Program-made: the position numbers and the translations under genes
Shown: one piece after another, positions 22,510-51,749 of the stretch
Layout: each line of letters opens with the position of its first letter
Position numbering within the stretch: position 1 is the stretch's first letter
Origin: a virus
Virus record (IMG/VR): IMGVR_UViG_3300012017_001157
Location: 1 to 64,000 of that record
Direction: 5' to 3' (one strand)
DNA length: 64,000 bases
The notes under the pieces: model-generated
The model's input: the letters and a program-made list of their open reading frames with translations, nothing else
The model's database searches: none
What the model was told of the DNA's origin: nothing

Positions 22510-22629
22510 TCAGAAATTCTGATGGTGTAGAGTCTTTTGTGCGGCGGCTTCCATGCCCCGCCGCTGGGGCTTGTGCCCCTTGGCCGCTCTGGTGGTTTCC
22601 TCCTTTTCCACCAGGGCGGCCCTTTTCAC
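22510..22629 (-). CDS. Possible basic mini-protein coupled to ParB-like gene
   Basis: A 39-residue basic frame starts at GTG 22629 overlapping the ParB-like stop in GTGA. A strong 14-bp-arm hairpin (22565-22622, stem GGCCGCC..GGTGG) lies in its 5' half and could instead be an RNA structure following the ParB-like gene. Coding is uncertain. Confidence 0.35.
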   Translation of the reverse strand: MKRAALVEKEETTRAAKGHKPQRRGMEAAAQKTLHHQNF

Positions 22630-23294
22630 TCCGGAACGTCTTTCCCCTCAATCAACCAGAGGAAGAATCCAGTAGCGGTTCCTTTCTTTTCGACATACCT
22701 CCTGTAGGCATTCACCAACGGCTCCGCCTCTTGTCGCTCAAGCCTCAACTCAATGCCACCAATCTTTACAATCATCGACATATTTGGGTCCAGCTGCGGC
22801 GCGACCCTCTGGGCGATGGTGCCGTCAACCGAGTCCGTGTACTGCGTTGTGATTGCATTTGGGTCTGAAGGGATTGCAATGGTTGACGGGCGCAACATTT
22901 CGTTTTCTGGAATATCCATGTCGTCTGCATAGCCGCTTGCGATAAGGAGGTCCTGTTCGTCAAGGCTTGCAATCAACTCTTCCAAAGCTTCTTCGTCGTA
23001 GTACCCAAGGTCTTGCGTGCGGTTGTCCGCCAACGCAAACGCGGTTGCGGTTTTTTCATCGTCATCCACCCAGACAACGGCAATTTGCTTCCAGCCAAGT
23101 CGCTTAGCGGCTTCAAACGTGTGGTTTCCGGCGATGACCTCTCGCGTTGACCTGTTTGCAACAATCGGCTTTCGCTGGCCGAACTTTGCAAGCGATCGCA
23201 TTACGGCGTCAACGTTGCCCTTTCTTGGATTTTTTCCCCACGGCTTAAGTTCTTCGATTTTTGCGGCCAGCGGAATAAGGTCGTCAATGATCAC
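22626..23294 (-). CDS. ParB/Srx-fold protein A
   Basis: The 222-residue protein has the ParB-like nuclease fold: LKPWGKNPRKGNVDAVMRSLAKFGQRKPI, then VIAGNHTFEAAKRLGW (the GNH-R-motif) and FALADNRTQDLGYYDEE. Phage proteins of this type are often fused or adjacent to methyltransferases or act on nucleotides. No methylase domain is present. A second, shorter homologue lies at 28034-28552. Confidence 0.8.
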   Translation of the reverse strand: MIIDDLIPLAAKIEELKPWGKNPRKGNVDAVMRSLAKFGQRKPIVANRSTREVIAGNHTFEAAKRLGWKQIAVVWVDDDEKTATAFALADNRTQDLGYYDEEALEELIASLDEQDLLIASGYADDMDIPENEMLRPSTIAIPSDPNAITTQYTDSVDGTIAQRVAPQLDPNMSMIVKIGGIELRLERQEAEPLVNAYRRYVEKKGTATGFFLWLIEGKDVPE

Positions 23295-23664
23295 TGCTTA
23301 CTTCCTCTCTTCTTTGGACGGCAAGGCGAAGTGCGCGCATTGACTCTGCCGCGATCTCAAACGTCTTTGCCATGTTTTCTATTGACTGCAATAGATTGCT
23401 TTCTGCGTCTCTGATTTCTTTTGCGATGCGCGAGTCCCGTGAATCAATGTCATAAAAATCTCTGATAATCATTTTTCTGATTTTTGATCTTGCCGGAACG
23501 CCGAGCGACGCATAGCACCTAAGAGTTTCTGGCGTAACGCCGTATTCTTTCGCAAGCACCTTGCATGCGCTGGTGATGTCGGAAATTTCTCTTGGCGCCT
23601 TGGAAAGCAAAACCTTTTGCACCATCCACGCGTCAACTTTTGTGTTTTCCCTAATGAACTTCAT
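23284..23664 (-). CDS. Hypothetical helical protein, HTH-like
   Basis: The 126-residue helical protein includes SACKVLAKEYGVTPETLRCYASLGVPARSKIRK, which resembles a helix-turn-helix. It may be a regulator or terminase-like small subunit. The ATG lies behind AGGAG, with TATACT about 45 bp upstream acting as a plausible -10. Confidence 0.55.
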   Translation of the reverse strand: MKFIRENTKVDAWMVQKVLLSKAPREISDITSACKVLAKEYGVTPETLRCYASLGVPARSKIRKMIIRDFYDIDSRDSRIAKEIRDAESNLLQSIENMAKTFEIAAESMRALRLAVQRREEVSSDH

Positions 23665-23714: not shown

Positions 23715-23876
23715 TCACAGGTAGTCGGAGCAGGAAGCGTAATAACCGCACCTGCAAACCAACTTACACTTGTTATCAATCAGTCTTTCGCCGCAATTTG
23801 GGCATGTTCGTATAATATCTTCCGGATCTGCCTCTTGTGTTTTTTCTTGCTCAGAGTTGTGATTTGGTCTTGACAT
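23715..23876 (-). CDS. Zinc-ribbon mini-protein (CPNCG...CRCG type)
   Basis: The 53-residue protein ends CPNCGERLIDNKCKLVCRCG and CSDY, a pattern seen in many small bacterial and phage proteins with a two-site zinc ribbon. It is the last minus-strand gene before the divergent palindrome region. Confidence 0.65.
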   Translation of the reverse strand: MSRPNHNSEQEKTQEADPEDIIRTCPNCGERLIDNKCKLVCRCGYYASCSDYL

Positions 23877-23964
23877 GGAAGGTTTCCTGTATACAATAAA
23901 ACCAGTATCTCAGGTACTAGATGGTTCTTATGGATACCAGTATACCTGGTAACAGTATTTCTTA

Positions 23965-24107
23965 GAATAACCTTGAACTTTCGGGTACAGCTATCCATAT
24001 GGTTCCTTCGGTACTACGTACCTCAGGACCCATATGGATACTGTACCCGGTTATTCCTTGTTCTTAAGAACCTTCGGTATTTCATACCTCAGGTTCTTAA
24101 GAACAAG
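23965..24107. repeat. Two back-to-back palindromes with a shared tip
   Basis: Hairpin A spans 23965-24056: outer arms GAATAACC/GGTTATTC, then CGGGTACAG/CTGTACCCG, then ATCCATATGG/CCATATGGAT. Hairpin B spans 24057-24107 with perfect 16-bp arms (24057-24072 and 24092-24107, both containing GTTCTTAAGAAC). Both tips read TTCGGTAyTwCrTACCTCA. The stems differ while the tip is conserved. The element fills the divergent intergenic region between 23876 and 24259. Candidate roles are origin, partition or transcription boundary. Confidence 0.75.
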
Positions 24108-24187
24108 TCATAACCCTTTTACCCCCTTTATCCCTACCCTTTTTCCCCCGTTGACCGATTTTAAGTGCTTTTCACAATGAGGAGGAT

Positions 24188-24216
24188 TTGACAGGGGCTA
24201 ACATATCGGCTAACTT
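24188..24216 (+). promoter_or_regulatory. Sigma70-like promoter
   Basis: TTGACA (24188-24193), 17 bp and TAACTT (24211-24216) precede the HTH gene by about 42 bp. A GGAGT site lies before its ATG. Confidence 0.5.
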
Positions 24217-24258: not shown

Positions 24259-24612
24259 ATGGAAAAGGAAAAAACGGTCTCTATCGCCGAAGCGGCAGAG
24301 ATTCTCGGAGTCAGCTACTCTGCAGCGGTGCAGGCATCTAGGCGCTACGGATGGGCAAAAGTTAGCGCAGGTCGTGGCCCAAAGGGTGGTCGCCCAAGGA
24401 TCATGTACAACCGATCTGAGGTTGAGAAGTATGGCGCAAATAGAAACCGCCAAACTTTCAAGTCCAAGAAGTTGGACGTAACGCTTCTTGACGCTGTTCG
24501 GGCAGCGGCTGAGACGCGAAAGCCAATCGGCAGAATTGCCAAGGAGCTGGGGGTGAGTCACTTCCTTGTTGGCAGCGCAGCATACGAGCTTGTTGCTCGC
24601 GGAAAGAAGTAA
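24259..24612 (+). CDS. HTH DNA-binding protein
   Basis: The 117-residue protein has an N-terminal excisionase-like helix-turn-helix (SIAEAAEILGVSYSAAVQASRRYGW) and a second one near the C terminus (PIGRIAKELGVSHFLVGSAAYELV). The middle is basic. It is probably a transcription or replication regulator and could bind the palindromes just upstream. Confidence 0.7.
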   Translation: MEKEKTVSIAEAAEILGVSYSAAVQASRRYGWAKVSAGRGPKGGRPRIMYNRSEVEKYGANRNRQTFKSKKLDVTLLDAVRAAAETRKPIGRIAKELGVSHFLVGSAAYELVARGKK

Positions 24613-27345: not shown

Positions 27346-28034
27346 AACTTCTTATAAAGTTCCCAACCAGGCAAAGGCCAGCTCTTTTCTTTGAAACTCT
27401 TTCAAAATATATTTCGATGTCCTCTGGTCTTCACCAGATCGAATATGTCATTTCAATGGACGAGGATGATGTCAGCATGAACAATGAACAGGTAAGAGAT
27501 CGGCTAAACGGACTTATAGACGGCGGCGTTGACATTAAGTATTTTTACGGAAACTCAAAAACCAAAATTGAGGCGATTAACGCAGACATGGACAAGGCCA
27601 GCGATGATTGGGACATGGTGTTTAACGGACAGGACGACATGATCCCCACCGCGGAGGGGTACGACGACGTCATGCTCACGCGGCTCTTTGAACTGTTCCC
27701 CGACACCGATGGCGCAGTCTGGCTAAACGACCAGTACATGGGCTATGACGAAAACTGCACAATCGTTGCTGCTGGCCGAAAGTACTACGAGCGATTTGGG
27801 TATCTCTACTACCCGGGATATGACTCAGTCTTTGCTGACAACGAGTACACAGAGGTTGGGAAAGCGCTTGGAAAACTGGTTTATGTTTCTGACCGAGTTG
27901 TCAAACACGACTGGATTGGCAAGGACCAGTCTCTCGACCCGCTTCTCCGAAGAAACGAAGAGCCAACAAAGTACGCGGCTGACAGACTGATCTTTGAAGA
28001 CAGGAAATCAAAGGCCTTTCCTAAGGATCGCTAA
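27342..28034 (+). CDS. GT-A-fold glycosyltransferase
   Basis: The 230-residue protein has LLIKFPTRQRPALFFETL, YVISMDEDDVSM, KIEAINADMDKASDDWDMVFNGQDDMIP and the late VKHDWIG histidine. That makes it a second GT-A enzyme, with D-E-D and Q-D-D acidic motifs. It starts at GTG 27342 overlapping the previous stop (GTGA). It forms a four-gene run with the epimerase, the GT2 enzyme and the ParB-like gene. Confidence 0.75.
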   Translation: MKLLIKFPTRQRPALFFETLSKYISMSSGLHQIEYVISMDEDDVSMNNEQVRDRLNGLIDGGVDIKYFYGNSKTKIEAINADMDKASDDWDMVFNGQDDMIPTAEGYDDVMLTRLFELFPDTDGAVWLNDQYMGYDENCTIVAAGRKYYERFGYLYYPGYDSVFADNEYTEVGKALGKLVYVSDRVVKHDWIGKDQSLDPLLRRNEEPTKYAADRLIFEDRKSKAFPKDR

Positions 28035-28552
28035 TGCGAATCACGGAAGAAAGTCCGGTAACGCTAAATCCGCATCCAGACAACCCTCGGGCCGGAGATG
28101 TTGGCGCGATTGTTGAATCCATCAAGAAAAACGGTTGGCACGGCGTTGTGGTCTGCCAACAAAGCACAAGAAGAATATTGGTTGGAAACCACCGAGTAAA
28201 AGCCGCGCTTATCTTGGGTTTGGAAAAAATTCCCGTTCAGTGGGCAGATGTTGACGATAACAGGGCAAAGGCGATACTCCTTGCGGACAACCGCGCCTCT
28301 GACCTTGGCGGATACGACGACGAGGTTCTGGCAAGGCTGGTTTACGAAACTGCTGTCGACGGTCTCCTTGATTCTACTGGCTACGACCTTGAAGACATGG
28401 ACAGGCTGGTGCGTCAGGCAATGGAGCCTGGGCCCATGGACCTAGACGAAAAAAAGACAGAGTGCCCAATGTGCGGGCACAAGTTTTACGCGGTTGCGCT
28501 TGGCGGTAGGCGGGGGAGACGGTCTGCCCACCCAGGCGGGTCAAAGTCTTGA
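28034..28552 (+). CDS. ParB/Srx-fold protein B with CxxC tail
   Basis: The 172-residue protein has LNPHPDNPRAGDVGAIVESIKKNGWHGVVV, ILVGNHRVKAAL (GNHR) and ILLADNRASDLGGYDDE. After residue 140 comes CPMCGHKF, a half zinc knuckle. It is a shorter paralogue of the protein at 22626. TAATG couples it to the glycosyltransferase. The last 22 codons overlap a convergent gene. Confidence 0.8.
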   Translation: MRITEESPVTLNPHPDNPRAGDVGAIVESIKKNGWHGVVVCQQSTRRILVGNHRVKAALILGLEKIPVQWADVDDNRAKAILLADNRASDLGGYDDEVLARLVYETAVDGLLDSTGYDLEDMDRLVRQAMEPGPMDLDEKKTECPMCGHKFYAVALGGRRGRRSAHPGGSKS

Positions 28553-39420: not shown

Positions 39421-39456
39421 CTACGGCGTAGGATAGAGCCTCCCCTACGCCCCAAC

Positions 39457-39499
39457 AGAGGGATCAAGTTGATCGCAGCCAACTTGATCCCTCTTTTTT
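39457..39499 (+). terminator. Long-stem intrinsic terminator
   Basis: A perfect 15-bp stem (39457-39471 with 39480-39494) followed by TTTTTT. This is the longest perfect terminator in the array. Confidence 0.85.
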
Positions 39500-40267: not shown

Positions 40268-40496
40268 TGTCGGAAGCGATTCTAGATGAAGCGACACCGA
40301 CTAGGTGAGACTCTGGACGAGCGAGCAGATGCCGCAGCCAAAAAATGCGGGTATAGAGACGCAAAGGACGATGACCGCTAGGTGCCAATGGATCGGCGGA
40401 GCGGAAGGAAAAGGAGTCGGGGGAAGTGATTAGCCCCCGATGAATAATCCGAAACGAGACCCCCAGAGCGACGGCTCTGGGGGTTTCGTGCTTTAT
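40268..40496 (+). ncRNA. Candidate structured RNA 1
   Basis: Between promoter P9 and a strong terminator lies about 225 nt without a GGAGG-led gene. Predicted stems are 40265-40273/40297-40305, CCGCA/TGCGG (40332-40350) and TCGGGGG/CCCCCGA (40417-40440). A terminator stem CCCCAGAGC/GCTCTGGGG lies at 40461-40482. A 31-codon frame (40286-40381) lacks a good ribosome site and may be coincidental. Confidence 0.55.
40453..40496 (+). terminator. Terminator of candidate RNA 1
   Basis: A long stem around CCCCAGAGC/GCTCTGGGG, extended by flanking CGA/TCG pairs, followed by a partly T-rich tail. Confidence 0.65.
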
Positions 40497-43622: not shown

Positions 43623-43760
43623 TTATATTATTCCCCGTTTATATTATTTATGTTATTTACTTATCACTTGTGTGTTAGACATCTAACAACAGCACCCAGG
43701 GTGCTGCGATAGAGCCTCCCCCCGACCACCGCGCCTGCGGCGATCGGGGGGAGGACTCCG

Positions 43761-44541: not shown

Positions 44542-44574
44542 GGAGTGTGGAAGCGCCGCGCGCTTCCACACTCC
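44542..44574 (-). repeat. Intercistronic hairpin, 14-bp perfect stem
   Basis: Arms 44542-44555 and 44561-44574 (GGAGTGTGGAAGCG and its complement) with loop CCGCG. It separates two minus-array genes and lacks a U-run, so it is not a classical terminator. A related, imperfect hairpin with the same loop lies at 44166-44190. Confidence 0.7.
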
Positions 44575-49011: not shown

Positions 49012-49176
49012 ACTCGCCGGAGGCGAGTCCATCGAACTTATTATGTTATTTGTTATTTATATTCATACTGTGAGTTACATATAGAACAGCAGCCCCAGGG
49101 GGCGCGACCGCCACCGAAGTCACATAGGTACAAAGAAGCCCCCGCCCTCCGCGCGCTCGCGGAGGACGGGGGCGGT
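49012..49176 (-). promoter_or_regulatory. Minus-array element E7
   Basis: GC-rich stem 49139-49174, GTTCTATATGTAAC, TATAAATA (49061-49054), GTTC, hairpin ACTCGCC-TCC-GGCGAGT (49028-49012), then about 80 nt to ATG 48929. Confidence 0.65.
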
Positions 49177-50319: not shown

Positions 50320-51103
50320 TGTCTGTCTCCTTCATATAGTTTGACGCAAGCTTTGCGAAATCTGTTTCGTACCCAAACCCACCGTGGTGAACCGTTCGTG
50401 CGTCCACAAGCACGTTGATGTCGTACCCAATTGCGCGCATGTCCATGCAGAATCCAAAGTCTTCGCCCCAGTGCTCCTTGGTTTCTGGATGCACCATAAA
50501 GCGGAAGAATTCGGTGAGACGCTGATTTGTTAGCGTGTTCTGATACCAGCGGTCTGGATACTTTTCCTGGAAGTCTAGCAGTGCCTCTCGACGAATAATC
50601 ATCGCGCCGGTCCCTGCTCGCTGCGACTTGAGAAGCATTCTTCCGTCAGGGCGTTCTTCGTCAATAGGGAGGAAGTTCATTCCGCCGATGTATGCTGGCA
50701 AATTTTTTGCTGGAATTTCAGGATACTTGCGCAGCACCTCAACCGCTAGTTCGAAATTCGCAATCCTCTTAGCGCACGGAAGGGCCACGATCGACTCGCC
50801 AGACGCAACCGCCCGAAGGACATCCTTTCCCGAAAACTCGATATCCGAGTCAACCATGAAAAGGTGCGAGTAGCCGCTCTCAAGGAATGAGTGCAACAAG
50901 ACATTCCTTGCATCGGTGAGGATCGATGATCCGTGCACCATCTTCCACTTGAACTGAATGCCGTTGTGCATGCAGTCCCGCTGAAGCTCCAGCAACCCCA
51001 TTGTGTTTCCTGGGTGCATCTCGTGGGCGATCGGTCCGCCGGAATAAATCGACGGCAAGTTCTGTTTTGCCTGATTGCGCATTTGCTTTGCCTTCTTACC
51101 CAT
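50306..51103 (-). CDS. GT-A-like glycosyltransferase
   Basis: From ATG 51103, 265 residues. LTDARNVLLHSFLESGYSHLFMVDSDIEFSG contains the D-S-D metal motif. PDGRMLLKSQRAGTGAMIIRREALL and GEDFGFCMDMRAIGYDI complete a typical phage glycosyltransferase. Basic N terminus. Overlaps the preceding gene by 8 bp. Confidence 0.8.
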   Translation of the reverse strand: MGKKAKQMRNQAKQNLPSIYSGGPIAHEMHPGNTMGLLELQRDCMHNGIQFKWKMVHGSSILTDARNVLLHSFLESGYSHLFMVDSDIEFSGKDVLRAVASGESIVALPCAKRIANFELAVEVLRKYPEIPAKNLPAYIGGMNFLPIDEERPDGRMLLKSQRAGTGAMIIRREALLDFQEKYPDRWYQNTLTNQRLTEFFRFMVHPETKEHWGEDFGFCMDMRAIGYDINVLVDARTVHHGGFGYETDFAKLASNYMKETDNEQD

Positions 51104-51749
51104 TGACAACCTTCTCCTTCTTTGAGTAGTTCCACGAATCTTCATCGCCGAGAGCGGCCCACCGTTCGCCCTCTGCAGAGAACAGTTGCGTGCTGACCTT
51201 GAAGTCCGGCATCTTCGGATTCTTAAACACCGCCGCCTCATCCATCCAGATGACACGGTTGTTCGGCTGCGCGGCAAACTGCCCGTTGTCTAGTCTAATG
51301 AAGTTGTAGGACTTGTGCTCTGCCGGAATGGCAGCCCAGTCGGTGTCCACTTCGTTCGGCTCGGGCTGCACCTGGTCCACCGTAAATAAGTATGAGCCCT
51401 TGTGCCATGCGCCTGCCTTGTCAAGGTACTTGCATGGCATCCCCTTGAGCAGGGTCTTCTCGATGACGGCAATTCCCGAGGAGTTGACATCCCACATCTG
51501 CAAGAGACCCAGCGGAAGATCGGGTGTTGGCGTCTCTGGGTTCTGGACGTACGCGCTAATGGGAAGTTTGTCATACAACGCCCCGTATTCCGGCAGGAAT
51601 GCCTCGATATACAGCGCGCGGTGCCGTGGCGCCTTGACGGTCACCCAGTAGGCTGGCGTGAACTCTCCGTGGCCATCCTGAAGGTCTCGCAAGTATTCCT
51701 TGCGGACGTAGCACGACACGGTTGGGATGTTTGCAATGACGTGCGGCAT
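51096..51749 (-). CDS. Conserved phage protein of unknown function
   Basis: The 217-residue protein begins PHVIANIPTVSCYVRKEYLRD and has FLPEYGALYDKLPISAYV. I recognise this pattern as a widespread phage hypothetical family often near glycosyltransferases or endonucleases. No function is known. Confidence 0.7.
   Translation of the reverse strand: MPHVIANIPTVSCYVRKEYLRDLQDGHGEFTPAYWVTVKAPRHRALYIEAFLPEYGALYDKLPISAYVQNPETPTPDLPLGLLQMWDVNSSGIAVIEKTLLKGMPCKYLDKAGAWHKGSYLFTVDQVQPEPNEVDTDWAAIPAEHKSYNFIRLDNGQFAAQPNNRVIWMDEAAVFKNPKMPDFKVSTQLFSAEGERWAALGDEDSWNYSKKEKVVNG

Follow-up and report, generated by a model that had tools for sequence, protein, structure and literature searches.

Twin abutting hairpins with identical tips form a conserved structured element in a small family of uncultured tailed phages

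The window, meaning the whole stretch of 64,000 nucleotides analysed here, is part of a 73,042-bp IMG/VR virus record, with portal, terminase, protease and tail genes present. Approximately 380 bp separate a leftward gene for a Zn-ribbon protein from a rightward HTH gene, and it is within this gap that the pair of hairpins lies (Table 1). Flanking the region, in opposite orientations, are two ParB-like genes (22626-23294 and 28034-28552) that belong to one broad family. Further afield, the minus strand at 51096-51749 encodes a protein sharing about 50% identity with one from cyanophages and pelagiphages whose annotation varies between PurM and ferredoxin, while positions 1-85 of the window consist of a 12-bp tandem repeat in about 7 copies.

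Table 1. Features at and around the hairpin pair; hairpins, tips and the G-rich block are described as read on the minus strand.
Feature	Positions	Strand	Description
MerR-like protein	23284..23664	minus	126 aa; second gene of leftward operon
Zn-ribbon protein	23717..23878	minus	53 aa; first gene of leftward operon, start near 23878; frame read from sequence
Promoter-like P1	23870..23897	plus	TTGACA-16-TACAAT; conserved in all homologues examined; points at hairpins
Region C	23898..23981		between P1 and hairpin A; fast-evolving; recurrent CTYAGG words
Hairpin A	23982..24049	minus	68 nt, one bulged base; 9 bp, bulged G, stem, G.A mismatch, 4 bp, tandem G.A, 5 bp, 3-nt loop
Tip module of A	24007..24025	minus	TGAGGTAC-GTA-GTACCGAA
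Hairpin B	24049..24115	minus	67 nt; 6 bp, tandem G.A, 17 bp, tandem G.A, 5 bp, loop GAA
Tip module of B	24073..24091	minus	TGAGGTAT-GAA-ATACCGAA; invariant across all relatives
G-rich mirror-symmetric block	24122..24149	minus	GGGGGAAAAAGGGTAGGGATAAAGGGGG; fits G-quadruplex pattern
Promoter-like P3, for HTH gene	24188..24216	plus	TTGACA-17-TAACTT; position conserved
HTH protein	24259..24612	plus	117 aa; N-terminal Xis/BldC/MerR-like winged HTH and second three-helix HTH-like part

Each hairpin comprises approximately 32 paired layers closed by a 3-nt loop; the tips are identical, no linker separates the two, and base 24049 is able to pair in either. These boundaries count the non-canonical G.A layers of the minus strand as stem. 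The initial annotation had described two abutting hairpins with a shared tip and unrelated stems, and this description holds, the pair being larger and more regular than it stated. Its lengths of 92 nt for A and 51 nt for B are corrected to those of Table 1, which are essentially equal, and the perfect 16-bp arms it gave for B exist only as the middle of a longer stem, in which a tandem mismatch is followed by 6 more pairs.

Compared with dinucleotide shuffles, the pair has a folding z-score of about -15 as RNA and about -14 as DNA, which excludes chance as the origin of the hairpins, and B and A are the top two short-loop inverted repeats by score within the window. Other long perfect or near-perfect inverted repeats lie mid-genome, at 44542-44574 (perfect arms of 15 bp), 39454-39497, 40454-40489, 43715-43754 and 49138-49173, and are probably terminators. 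An intrinsic terminator was rejected for the twin hairpins, where neither strand carries a GC-rich hairpin with a T run. Repetitive mobile hairpins (REP or IS ends) were likewise rejected, with one locus per genome and no dispersed copies.

A 23-nt tip pattern retrieved 12 other IMG/VR phage contigs, a two-tip pattern the same 12 and one chance match, and a relaxed one-tip pattern again those 12, every one of which carries exactly two tips at a spacing of 66 nt; this tip-to-tip distance is kept in all nine variants compared. A covariance model placed a single locus in each of four long relatives and none in eleven further phage records, either relatives or controls. When 84,980 bacterial and archaeal genomes were scanned with the pattern, all 14 matches were devoid of the twin-hairpin structure and resembled chance or coding sequence. 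Rfam holds no family for the hairpins at gathering or permissive thresholds, only the two tRNAs being matched, and a weak miRNA-precursor match falls far below the cut-off of that family. The phages are presumably of freshwater origin, going by their IMG sample numbers, and database matches point to several unrelated host groups. The hairpin pair is an unregistered structured element, held at a fixed spot, of a small family of uncultured phages.

Across the family, pairing has been retained while sequence has changed. In the alignment, whose sequences represent about five lineages so that sequence counts overstate the number of events, 99.3% of cells are paired and both sides have changed in 17 of 53 pairs, a number reached by none of 500 shuffles. 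On four of five measures no shuffle (0/500) scored as high as the alignment, and sliding the partners by 1-3 columns as a control reduced pairing to 29-48%. A separate RNAalifold run gave 20 compensated pairs. Such compensatory change beyond chance is what is generally expected of structured noncoding RNA. Sequence is conserved in the tip alone, for both hairpins of 13 of 13 phages; the stems, of which those of A and B are unrelated to each other, vary freely among phages and keep only their complementarity. Repair of quasi-palindromes is an unlikely cause of the complementarity, since the G.A mismatches stay conserved instead of being corrected.

The exceptions to Watson-Crick pairing distinguish the two strands. 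Read on the minus strand, the cells comprise 555 Watson-Crick, 78 G.A, 6 G.U and 1 U.U pairs with no A.C, whereas on the plus strand every wobble change becomes A.C, nearly all other mismatches become C.U and there is no G.U. The tandem mismatches, found in both tips, in the outer loop of B in the window's group and in A of several relatives, are all 5'-GA/3'-AG on the minus strand, an arrangement known for good stacking. Tolerance of G.U with absence of A.C is the signature of a structured RNA, drawn here from about four independent events (L005/L006/L009; L006; L014; L013) in about five lineages. In addition, the minus strand folds 4-13 kcal/mol better than the plus strand in 11 of 11 homologues. 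On the basis of this mismatch pattern and the folding energies, the minus strand is very probably the one that folds.

Conserved promoters, on the other hand, are confined to the opposite strand. P1 reads into the hairpins, which begin approximately 80 nt downstream, and P3 is also on the plus strand; upstream of the hairpins on the minus strand no sigma70-like promoter is shared among the homologues, although a phage-specific promoter would be invisible to such a test. Because promoter strand and folding strand are opposed, a role at the level of DNA stays in contention and RNA cannot be claimed firmly. Part of the conservation of P1 may be coding because its -35 element overlaps the start codon of the Zn-ribbon gene. 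Within region C, the partial third copy of the tip reported near 23908 proved to be merely a recurrent CTYAGG word: neither RNAalifold nor inspection by eye found a conserved third hairpin across the relatives, in whose upstream regions these words occur in 0-3 copies against fewer than 0.1 expected.

Beyond hairpin B, the G-rich block forms a near-perfect mirror repeat which is more conserved than the surrounding sequence and nearly as conserved as the hairpins. It is identical in 8 other contigs and missing in L004, L008 and L012. In L014 it has diverged with both halves changed together, retaining the mirror symmetry, the G runs and the fit to the pattern. The block is a companion and no obligatory part of the element.

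Among the neighbouring genes, the HTH gene is the constant associate, as the initial annotation supposed, and always co-occurs with the element in the same contigs. A search with its protein, run twice, returned the same 12 contigs, while terminase relatives at 67-73% identity are without the element and, in the stretch examined, without the HTH gene; the element is confined to phages with this gene. The adjoining tRNA that had also been singled out is not a fixed neighbour, lying about 400 bp further off in L014. In an AlphaFold2 model of the HTH protein (six sequences; mean pLDDT 78, pTM 0.46), a winged HTH is accompanied by a second part of three helices, and a conserved GGRPR stretch joins the two HTH-like parts, recalling the paired-type DNA-binding arrangement. 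Foldseek returned no match to the model at E 0.001 or better, and the best partial fits of its N-terminal part, which are weak, are to Xis and BldC DNA-binding domains. The protein probably binds duplex DNA, for which the CTYAGG words in region C are a possible target; only co-occurrence links it to the hairpins. Named phage records contain no relative of the HTH or the Zn-ribbon protein. The Zn-ribbon/MerR-like pair is more widespread than the hairpins, being present in many distant relatives (L069, L070, L072, L087 and others) directly beside the small terminase gene, with the hairpins absent. From this it seems that the pair moved, or gained the hairpin region, in the window's clade.

Three roles had been proposed for the locus at the outset, namely a replication origin, a partition or centromere-like site, or a regulator site recognised through the tip. 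The last of these survives, as the tips alone are conserved in sequence, while the other two find no support. The GC skew, suggested as a check on the origin, tracks gene strand to the left and right of the site alike, with no independent switch; the replication-type genes are at 54.8-56.2 kb, where no clear iterons were seen. A parS-type site would be accompanied by a ParA/ParB pair and repeated copies; each genome carries one locus, no ParA was present among the proteins scanned and the neighbouring ParB-like genes have their matches in broad ParB/nuclease families.

The interpretation preferred here, tentatively and with a chance somewhat short of even, is that the element is a minus-strand structured RNA acting as a two-ended binding scaffold. 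Its observed basis lies in the structure, the compensatory evolution, the 66-nt tip spacing, the single-copy locus and the G.A and G.U signature of the minus strand. The two hairpins, equal in length and free of a linker, could form, by end-to-end stacking, a single rod of about 63 layers that bears at each end the identical module of tandem G.A pairs, GGUAY/RUACC and a 3-nt loop. Encoded in a clade of tailed phages, the folded strand would act as RNA, either as the leader of the Zn-ribbon/MerR-like operon or as a short RNA of its own, and a phage or host protein may bind both tips, with the two-ended scaffold controlling how the divergent gene blocks are expressed. Against this stand the near-perfect P1 reading into the hairpins while no minus-strand sigma70-like promoter is conserved, the small number of wobble events and the 3-nt loops, which are unusual in conserved RNA and common in DNA hairpins. 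Such loops, which in the window follow GNA when read on the minus strand, would suit the main alternative, held here to be somewhat unlikely: a hairpin site in DNA, formed either by the minus strand folding while single-stranded or by cruciform extrusion of both strands. It would lie beside a melted or quadruplex-forming G-rich block and be recognised by a protein of replication, priming, recombination or regulation. The z-score as DNA, the promoter pattern and the conserved mirror block adjoining on the same strand are in line with this, as is the Y-GA-R context of the tandem G.A pairs in the tips, which is favourable in DNA; 63 layers, moreover, correspond to 6.0 turns of B-DNA at 10.5 bp per turn. 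However, the replication-type genes are about 31 kb off, the skew tracks gene strand, and the proteins scanned included no recombinase, relaxase or virion RNA polymerase, while the cruciform form predicts no bias between G.U and A.C, where approximately four of four events are one-sided. Integron attC and other folded single-strand recombination sites are also imperfect hairpins of variable stem sequence in which one strand is recognised; attC itself was rejected, with no RYYYAAC/GTTRRRY core boxes at the hairpin bases, no integrase found and a single fixed locus. N4-type single-stranded hairpin promoters share the 5-bp stem and 3-nt loop of the tip, but the arms of the element run to 32 layers and the window has no gene for a giant virion RNA polymerase.

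Transcription from P1 would instead yield a plus-strand leader or short RNA off a strong early promoter, possibly an antitermination element of the put type followed by a Rho-site-like stretch. P1 and its distance from the hairpins agree with this, as does the C-rich, G-poor sequence right after hairpin B, and HK022, likewise a phage, has in its putRNA a pair of neighbouring stem-loops that contain non-canonical pairs and lie close to an early sigma70 promoter (PMC9378689). The A.C and C.U mismatches on the plus strand and its poorer folding in every homologue make this quite improbable. Furthermore, putRNA, which binds the zinc-binding domain of the RNA polymerase beta' subunit and suppresses termination, is approximately 70 nt and is transcribed from the promoter just upstream, whereas the element is 134 nt, about twice that size, with different tips and a selected strand opposite to the strong promoter, and its equal arms and twin tips are absent from put. 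Least probable, and very doubtful, is a double-stranded operator for the HTH protein, in which the tips would serve as two 23-bp imperfect palindromes between divergent promoters. The constant company of the HTH gene, the weak likeness of its product to Xis and BldC domains and the sequence conservation of the tips speak for it; it leaves unexplained why the stems change in sequence yet stay complementary, and the G.A signature outside the tips.

Returning to the minus-strand RNA, ROOL and GOLLD are conserved structured RNAs encoded by phages, of unknown function and often near tRNA genes (PMC12286853). They differ from the element in being several hundred nucleotides long (GOLLD often >800) and elaborately branched, and the element has no Rfam match. 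It is also conceivable, though unlikely, that the element belongs to a new class of control elements in phages: a rigid rod of nucleic acid with two ends and a fixed arm length, whose identical G.A-capped tips would bridge two copies of one protein and switch between the leftward and rightward gene blocks. The element combines strong covariation with a locus that is compact and tractable, and it raises a clear question, namely which factor recognises a pair of identical tips kept at constant spacing. As an RNA, it would join the few conserved phage RNAs whose function is unknown, as a small type with two arms; as DNA, it would be a rare folded-strand site within a tailed phage genome.
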